A DNA stretch of 22,124 bases from a virus. This document shows positions 20,816 through 22,124 of the stretch, piece by piece. The stretch spans positions 1-22,124 of IMG/VR virus record IMGVR_UViG_3300035703_000429. One strand, 5' to 3'. How positions within the stretch are numbered: position 1 is the first letter of the stretch; each line of letters starts with the position of its first letter. The notes beneath the pieces were generated by a model. The model ran no database searches and had not been told where the DNA came from. It saw only the letters and a list, made by a program, of their open reading frames with translations. Both the position numbers and the translations under genes were made by a program.

Positions 20816-20903
20816 AAGCATCAATTATTTCAATGTTGCTTATTAACTTTCTCTAACGTCTATTAACAATGAACTTGTTCGTTAGGAATCGTTAACATGT
20901 GTT

Positions 20904-20947
20904 GCTGTGTAGACGGACTTAGCCTTCCTGCTAAGCCTTTACACAGC
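20904..20947. repeat. 44-bp stem-loop (element C)
   Basis: GCTGTGTA (20904-20911) pairs with TACACAGC (20940-20947), and CTTAGC (20918-20923) pairs with GCTAAG (20930-20935) across a six-base loop, with an internal loop between. It starts with the same GCTGTGTAG as element B. No T tract follows. A structured RNA or protein site is possible. Confidence 0.65.
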
Positions 20948-21287
20948 GGTGTTATTGTGGACACCACCACGACTCGGAAGCCTTTCGACATTAGGACGCT
21001 GCCTTCGCCATCCTGTTGCGCTGTTTCAATGTCTATCCCGTGGTAGCGCTCTAACGACTGTCGTCGTTGTTGATCACCACCGTTAGCCGTCTGATCAACA
21101 TCGCCAGTTTTACACAGATGTGGTGTCGGTGTCAACACCTTTCGGTGGCAATAAATGGGGACAGAGTCATTTTCGTTGCAACCTAGACGTCAACATCCTT
21201 TGTTTTTTAAAACACAAGCGAAACGATGTCGTTTTGGACAGGCTTTGGCGACAATGTTGCGATGTTGTCTATAAGTGGGCTATAAAG

Positions 21288-21322
21288 GGCTGTGTAGCTG
21301 ACGTGTTCAAGCGGTGCAGACT
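21288..21322. repeat. element B, diverged copy of element A
   Basis: ggctgtgtagctgacgtgtt (21288-21307) matches 20388-20407 at 18 of 20 positions, and both are followed 8-9 bases later by gcagact. Both are also preceded by ctata. Element B has lost the long self-complementary stem of element A, so sequence rather than hairpin shape is what the two share. Confidence 0.65.
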
Positions 21323-21375
21323 GTGGCGTGTGTGCGGGGTGGTGTAGAGCTAAGTTGTTGATGTTGTTGATGTAG

Positions 21376-21398
21376 TATGTTAGTGATCGCTAACTTAG
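21376..21398. promoter_or_regulatory. operator-like palindrome, copy 1
   Basis: TATGTTAGTGATCGCTAACTTAG contains the dyad GTTAGTGATCGCTAAC with a single mismatched pair. It is nearly identical (21 of 23) to the copy at 21630-21652. A TATAAA box follows at 21400-21405 but has no good -35. Confidence 0.7.
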
Positions 21399-21446
21399 TT
21401 ATAAAAACCTAATCTGTGTGCTTGGCTGTATATAGTAGCGCGCACA

Positions 21447-21472
21447 CCCCCCACTGGCCCACGCCCGCCCCC
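21447..21472 (-). other. G-quadruplex motif on the minus strand
   Basis: Reading the minus strand, runs of 5, 3, 3 and 6 guanines are separated by loops of 1, 3 and 5 bases, a canonical four-tract quadruplex pattern. The plus strand is the matching C-rich strand. It lies in non-coding DNA between the two operator-like palindromes. Confidence 0.7.
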
Positions 21473-21629
21473 TCGCTCGTAGCAGCAAAGCTGCCGTGTG
21501 TGTGCGTAGCGTGATCGCGCATAATGCGCTGCGTAGTACGATCTCGCGCACAGGGAATTCCGTTAGGAATCAACGACTTAGCTCTATGTCTATGACATAA
21601 GTCGGAGCGTCGTAAAATGGGGAAAATCA

Positions 21630-21652
21630 TATGTTAGTGGTCACTAACTTAG
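21630..21652. promoter_or_regulatory. operator-like palindrome, copy 2
   Basis: TATGTTAGTGGTCACTAACTTAG holds 7-bp perfect arms GTTAGTG/CACTAAC around GT. It lies 254 bp from copy 1. On the minus strand a TATGAT box follows the dyad directly, without a good -35. Further CGCTAAC half-sites occur at 21683, 21738 and 21898. Confidence 0.75.
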
Positions 21653-21741
21653 ACGGTGTTGCCGAACCTTCGGTTCGATGTACGCTAACGACTACGTCGT
21701 CCTACAACACACACCCCCTACGTCGCGTGTCCACATGCGCT

Positions 21742-21769
21742 AACGCATAACGTCAAACGCATAACGTCA
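21742..21769. repeat. tandem 14-bp direct repeat
   Basis: AACGCATAACGTCA occurs twice back to back without mismatch, about 70 bp upstream of the rightward promoter. The first copy begins inside a CGCTAAC half-site (21738-21744). Confidence 0.85.
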
Positions 21770-21835
21770 CGCGTCACAGCACGCGCACACGCGCAGCAGC
21801 TTCGCTGCCAACGACGTTGCCGAAAAACCCCACAG

Positions 21836-21864
21836 TTGACTCGGGTATTGTTTGTCGCTACAGT
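21836..21864 (+). promoter_or_regulatory. rightward sigma70-like promoter
   Basis: TTGACT (21836-21841), 17 bases, then TACAGT (21859-21864). The start would be near 21871, leaving about 55 bases of leader that contain a palindrome and the ribosome site. It presumably opens the rightward transcript. Confidence 0.65.
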
Positions 21865-21879
21865 CCGTTCCCATCGACA

Positions 21880-21894
21880 GCAACACGGTGTTGC
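21880..21894. promoter_or_regulatory. 15-bp perfect palindrome after the rightward promoter
   Basis: GCAACAC-G-GTGTTGC lies just downstream of the expected start site, where a repressor would block the rightward transcript. The half-site GCAACA also occurs in the dyad at the leftward promoter (20755-20760). Confidence 0.65.
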
Positions 21895-21925
21895 AGTCGC
21901 TAACGATCCTGAAAGGATATACATC

Positions 21926-22105
21926 ATGACGAACGAACACGCCAAGTCACTTCGTGAAGCTACCGCCGGTTTGCTGAAAGCAACGTTGGCTTATGCTAGG
22001 ACGGAAGATCAGAAGCATTACCATCAAATGGTAATGTGGCAGAATCGAATTTGGGTACTTGCAAAGCAAGTCGCTGAGGATGAAGCGACTGAGCTTGCCG
22101 AATAA
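21926..22105 (+). CDS. 59-aa unknown protein, first rightward gene
   Basis: The only plus-strand gene supported here. ATG at 21926 is chosen over an in-frame upstream start because TGAAAGGATAT ends 5 bases before it, matching the ribosome site of the leftward first gene. The product begins MTNEHAKSLREATAGLLKAT and continues 'LAYARTEDQKHYHQMVMWQN'; it is one long amphipathic helix pair, acidic at the C-terminus (VAEDEATELAE), with no known family. It likely begins the early region to the right. A TTGACA follows its stop at 22114-22119 and may be the -35 of another promoter cut by the window edge. Confidence 0.75.
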   Translation: MTNEHAKSLREATAGLLKATLAYARTEDQKHYHQMVMWQNRIWVLAKQVAEDEATELAE

Positions 22106-22124
22106 CCCGACACTTGACAGGGGC

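Follow-up and report, generated by a model that had tools for sequence, protein, structure and literature searches.

Perfect mini-hairpins with coevolving arms pack the early region of a group of HMO-2011-type phages

The window and its divergent non-coding region

The window, the whole 22,124-nt stretch analyzed here, is a single 22-kb IMG/VR record whose structural genes (terminase, portal, and coat) form a leftward module, in which PHROG matches identified portal, head-protein, and connector genes. Its TerL is 70-73% identical to those of the environmental phage MW202701, the Roseobacter phages CRP-345 and CRP-1, and Puniceispirillum phage HMO-2011, and its late module is oriented divergently from the early module, as in HMO-2011-type phages. 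The window is a fragment of an HMO-2011-type podophage. The genome is incomplete, and replication genes are absent from the window itself. The PolA with a DnaJ-type insert that marks HMO-2011-type phages was not seen in the nearest full relatives (G008-G010), in which no PolA was found, placing the window's lineage in a related branch of the group.

On the minus strand, positions 20972-21090 match the Betaproteobacteria-1 RNA of Rfam (RF02932; 67 bits, gathering threshold 49.4). Because the match lies upstream of the leftward operon, it is probably the leader of that operon; the relatives G008-G011 have it as well, a hint that phages carry this RNA family and that the host is a betaproteobacterium. 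Next to the match, a second hairpin is conserved (CTTAGC-CTTCCT-GCTAAG, 20905-20945, minus strand) and kept in L002 and L003. Rfam returned no match above threshold at 21400-22124.

The rightward (early) side of the divergent non-coding region is occupied by dyads that start ~10 bp past a conserved element of ~70 bp (21403-21472, plus strand; TGTATATAGTAGCGC...CACCCCCC...TGGCCCACGCCCG). This element is kept in many relatives, including HMO-2011 (53574-53638), and probably comprises the early promoter and transcript start. The dyads end ahead of a sigma-70-like promoter, TTGACT-17-TACAGT (21836-21864, plus strand), that precedes the first small early ORF; in L003 and L123, every small early ORF likewise has a TTGAC motif ahead of it. 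Upstream of the conserved element is an operator-like palindrome, GTTAGTGATCGCTAAC (21379-21394), whose outer half-sites are kept in relatives while its center varies. With a second 16-bp palindrome at 21633-21648 it forms a pair (GTTAGTNNNNRCTAAC) that flanks the element and is kept in relatives; no repressor gene for the pair was identified, and relatives do carry an integrase. Just past the presumed early transcript start, positions 21445-21475 are C-rich and G-poor, as in all relatives, and we raise only as a question whether this stretch has a rut-like or other single-strand function.

The six perfect three-base-loop dyads that the first-pass annotation reported at 21482-21808 are all present, and all are perfect. 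They fill slots A (GCAGC-AAA-GCTGC, 21482-21494), B (GCGCA-TAA-TGCGC, 21517-21529), D (TATGTC-TAT-GACATA, 21585-21599), F (CGAACC-TTC-GGTTCG, 21663-21677), G (ACGAC-TAC-GTCGT, 21688-21700), and H (GCAGC-TTC-GCTGC, 21796-21808). Missing from that list were two tetraloop stems, ATTCC-GTTA-GGAAT (slot C, 21557-21570) and ATGCG-CTAA-CGCAT (21735-21748), and the 16-bp palindrome of slot E, GTTAGTG-GT-CACTAAC (21633-21648), which doubles as the second operator-like site. The arms were said to differ in sequence, which holds for most of them but not all, because the first and last dyads have identical arms (GCAGC). A long-range closing stem in a single-sequence fold rested partly on these identical arms, was not confirmed in relatives, and was rejected. 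Beyond the six, five more triloop hairpins follow. GCAACA-CGG-TGTTGC (21880-21894) lies in the 5' UTR, and ATCCT-GAA-AGGAT (21906-21918, plus strand) holds the Shine-Dalgarno AGGA and reads TTCCT-GAA-AGGAA in relatives (L003 and L123). The other three, TTGCT-GAA-AGCAA (21971-21983), the 9-bp stem CATTACCAT-CAA-ATGGTAATG (22016-22036), and ACTTGC-AAA-GCAAGT (22057-22071), lie inside a 59-aa early ORF without a family match (21926-22105, plus strand), where synonymous shuffles averaged 0.75 (P 0.02).

Hairpin density in leaders and genes

Dinucleotide shuffles (500) of positions 21440-21840 had a mean of 0.51 triloop dyads with 5-6-bp arms and a maximum of 4, so the six observed are excessive for 330 bp, as had been argued. 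The 11 found at 21440-22124 likewise exceeded every shuffle (mean 0.75, maximum 4). The rate of about one dyad per kilobase first put forward as the chance expectation agrees with the rest of the window (1-20900), which has 19 for 21 expected, and the non-coding DNA directly upstream (20863-21480) has none. This density was equaled neither in late coding DNA nor in shuffled sequence, and the reading of a local excess held. As a separate observation, stems with loops of 4 and 6 nt are somewhat above expectation in the late region (1-20900; 46 and 34, respectively, versus 22).

Relatives of the window, including the isolates HMO-2011 and CRP-1, have the first 1-4 kb of their early regions packed with perfect 5-9-bp stems closed by 3-4-nt loops. 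Triloop stems reach up to 10 per 500 bp in the early regions of ten records (L003, L026, L030, L033, L035, L037, L048, L057, L067, and L079), which in most of them start ~4.5 kb upstream of TerL. When stems with arms of at least 6 bp and loops of 3-4 nt were counted over whole records, HMO-2011, CRP-1, and G001-G004 peaked where the early region begins, at 11-25 stems per kb, and had ~1 per kb elsewhere. Lower peaks were found in CRP-345 (6 per kb) and in N4 and RHph_N3_19 (5 in the first kb), and a comparable peak was absent from MW202701, G005, G006, CRP-3, CRP-212, HTVC033P, and T7. The arrays begin right after the early promoter-like element and then fade across 1-4 kb; perfect 7-bp stems with 3-4-nt loops numbered 110 in 35.6 kb of early DNA versus 19 in 148 kb of late DNA. 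Against a simple random-placement null, on which this signal hinges, gaps of 10-20 nt between neighboring stems were in excess (52 versus 29) and gaps below 10 nt were depleted (17 versus 36). We found no gene common to all array phages and missing from all others, and sub-clades have no first early proteins in common.

The same hairpins recur within the coding sequences of early genes, a fact beyond the reach of the first-pass annotation. Using synonymous shuffles, which hold the protein and its codon counts constant, we counted 132 hairpins in 33 early ORFs for 15.6 expected. In L048, 19 stems lie in the first early gene (236 aa; mean 1.2, maximum 5 in 400 shuffles) and 10 in GP88 (0.6 expected); late genes are at chance. 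The array therefore spans leader, UTRs, and genes, and its stems are limited to loops of at most 5 nt: enrichment of early over late DNA is 17.7-fold for loops of 3 nt, 8-fold for 4 nt, and 3-fold for 5 nt, and near background beyond. An apparent codon-phase bias in one gene was gone over the 33 ORFs. The hairpin-rich early genes include GP88 (PF17338) and L5 gp82-like genes (L003:1931-2764 and L048:2903-3619).

Coevolution of the arms and nature of the stems

The proposal that shape is conserved while sequence changes was confirmed across relatives, in which we found compensatory changes. Among four homologues of the first early gene (L048, L057, L084, and L086), 12 of 126 pairs had changed on both sides (5.7 in shuffles, 0-2 in slid structures), and 12 leaders had 26 doubly changed cells (10.4 in shuffles, 0-4 when slid); the compared sequences are related, and these counts are not of independent events. 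The same slots are refilled with different arms across 13 leaders. Slot A becomes GCAAC-TTC-GTTGC or GCACC-TTC-GGTGC; slot C, GATTTAC-GTT-GTAAATC, ATTTGC-TTT-GCAAAT, or GATTTC-CTATA-GAAATC; slot F, CTTCATC-GAA-GATGAAG or CTTCAGC-GAA-GCTGAAG; slot G, CAGAGAC-GTA-GTCTCTG in 1-4 tandem copies; and slot H, GGCGAC-GTA-GTCGCC or GGCAAC-GTA-GTTGCC. The core sequence of slot B is invariant, and slot D is 100% paired in 12 relatives, with 3 doubly changed pairs among their leaders. Loops are also inverted (TTAT/ATAA and ATGT/ACAT), and in L124 CAAAGAC-TAC-GTCTTTG sits amid copies of CAGAGAC-GTA-GTCTCTG. On the present data, the existence of the array and the coevolution of its arms are close to certain.

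Arms diverge less than their flanks both at third codon positions (0.180 versus 0.239) and in non-coding DNA (0.104 versus 0.124) when arms are defined in either sequence. This constraint is only mild, so the direct evidence of purifying selection is modest, and maintenance may owe as much to copying from arm to arm as to selection. A one-sided version of the test looked strong but was biased, because arms were defined in one sequence; the unbiased version is the mild one.

The stems could act as RNA, if early transcripts were selected to fold against RNase, Rho, ribosome-free stretches, or RNA-targeting defence. The arrays do start at the presumed transcript start and cover the leader plus genes, the Shine-Dalgarno lies in a covarying 5-bp hairpin, and in coding DNA the sense strand has more of the loops (GNA 63 versus 31), a preference that may reflect codon composition. 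The leader also folds as RNA with a z of -3.1, versus -6.5 with DNA parameters. Base pairing, however, is not that of a functional RNA leader, whose helices tolerate G.U and compensate through it. Perfect 7-bp stems are ~24-fold enriched and those with one interior mismatch only ~2-fold, with G.U no better than A.C; pairs broken between relatives are G.U in 120 cases and A.C in 110. Nor do transitions dominate the compensatory changes (62% of double changes, against 38% transversions). Stable RNA tetraloops (GNRA/UNCG) are barely enriched, whereas GNA triloops are, and in the non-coding leaders the latter are strand-symmetric (28 of 57 unique triloops are GNA on either strand, 16 versus 12), with a C-G closing pair in 45 of the 57. 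C(GNA)G is an unusually stable DNA minihairpin. The array is like the genome-scale ordered RNA structure (GORS) of RNA viruses in that structure is spread over coding sequence, and unlike it in belonging to a dsDNA phage, in being confined to the early region, and in having perfect stems without G.U preference. Selection for mRNA structure is thus unlikely, and the RNA leader among the first proposed roles is disfavored by the lack of G.U preference and the symmetric loops. Together with the loop inversions, the fold scores, and the other pairing and loop data, these two properties favor hairpins that act at the DNA level.

Origin and possible role of the array

Neither the array nor a reason for it appears to have been described before: we found no earlier description of such arrays in phages in the open-licence PMC literature, and the genome paper on HMO-2011-type phages (PMC9038755) nowhere mentions hairpin, inverted repeat, stem, or promoter. 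Perfect palindromes without an excess of imperfect ones are known from the coding sequences of mitochondrial genes of Nematomorpha, for which template switching has been discussed (PMC6649704). Like these, the phage arrays place perfect inverted repeats in coding genes with no surplus of imperfect ones, keep the two arms identical, and gain and lose repeats from one species to another. Nematomorph arms, however, reach 284 bp and have no regional limit, whereas phage arms are 5-9 bp with 3-4-nt loops, lie tens of bases apart, occur only in the immediate-early DNA of a dsDNA phage, and extend to non-coding leaders. Hairpins can be both created and maintained by template switching, which leaves inverted loops as a mark (PMC8794818). 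Compensatory pairs, inverted loops, and perfect Watson-Crick arms are common to that work, on rRNA genes, and to the phage hairpins, which differ in that they saturate entire genes within one region.

Both precedents lend weight to an array without function, as proposed for the nematomorph genes, in which the hairpins of a region left single-stranded arise and are mended through intrastrand template switching. Such neutral scars would account for arms that are perfect or nothing, for loop inversions and coupled changes, and for the mild arm constraint. Yet hairpin slots persist across wide divergence, stems have a preferred spacing, and the arrays start sharply past the early promoter with none in the neighboring non-coding DNA. 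Arrays also occur with different replication modules: HMO-2011, CRP-1, and G002-G004 share one (PolA with DnaJ insert), G001 has a different PolA plus a fused Toprim/DnaB protein, and G008-G010 yielded no PolA. We consider a purely neutral origin rather improbable and, given the three set-ups, reject a polymerase-specific mutation. Spread of a tiny mobile hairpin, also proposed at first, fits local tandem copies (CAGAGAC-GTA-GTCTCTG in L003 and L124, and copies in L150 and L155) and the dispersed TGACGA-NNNN-TCGTCA of the L048 group (with L057 and L086), ORFs included. It fits little else: most hairpins have no common arm sequence, and homologous coding hairpins differ through paired substitutions rather than insertions, which makes it a very unlikely general explanation. 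Early promoters of the N4 type, which a virion RNA polymerase reads as small hairpins extruded from supercoiled early DNA at the left end (PMC4496689), have the same geometry (5-7-bp stem, 3-base loop), location in early DNA, and DNA-level hairpin, but we regard them as highly improbable here. N4 has three such promoters, whereas these phages have dozens of hairpins, many of them every ~30-45 bp within genes, and host-type TTGACT promoters stand ahead of small genes. The T7-type RNA polymerase family (PF00940) was absent from 11 records in a search that scored the T7 and N4 positive controls, and tblastn found no significant relative of the N4 virion polymerase in array phages; this covers the relatives tested, the window's own genome being incomplete. 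Of the other roles first suggested, a single-strand origin is possible, and nothing points to a packaging signal.

We favor, with confidence just short of even, a reading in which the six dyads form the untranslated beginning of a clade-wide array of DNA mini-hairpins over the immediate-early region of a group of HMO-2011-type phages. The earlier interpretation as a whole is partly supported. The hairpins would form as DNA extruded from negatively supercoiled early DNA or, alternatively, by folding of early DNA left single-stranded as transcription or replication starts. In the folded hairpin, one arm would be copied from the other by intrastrand template switching; arms would therefore stay perfectly Watson-Crick and loops would occasionally be inverted. 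The arms would be kept identical by this copying and probably by selection, and a wealth of hairpins just past the early promoter would be favored in its own right. The likeliest benefit would be absorption of supercoils, or an early strand that stays open or protected as infection begins. Against this reading, close relatives (MW202701, CRP-3, CRP-212, and HTVC033P) do without the array. More tentatively, the array may be a genome element of a new kind: DNA mini-hairpins able to extrude, densely set across the leader and coding genes of the immediate-early region and kept by selection, with shape rather than sequence conserved and an action on the DNA level in the first minutes of infection.

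Phages with the array abound in both marine and lake waters, and HMO-2011, a published isolate, shows the pattern. About a third of the bases of the early protein-coding region lie in perfect hairpin arms that change in pairs, which makes the region a strong natural test case for three questions: do short DNA hairpins form in vivo, are they maintained by template switching, and what role do they have as infection starts? It is also a warning that DNA shape governs both the synonymous sites of these early genes and the changes in their proteins. In the early regions of L048, L057, and L086, the dispersed hairpin TGACGA-NNNN-TCGTCA occurs in both coding and non-coding DNA, and one of its loops is reverse-complemented (AACT/AGTT).
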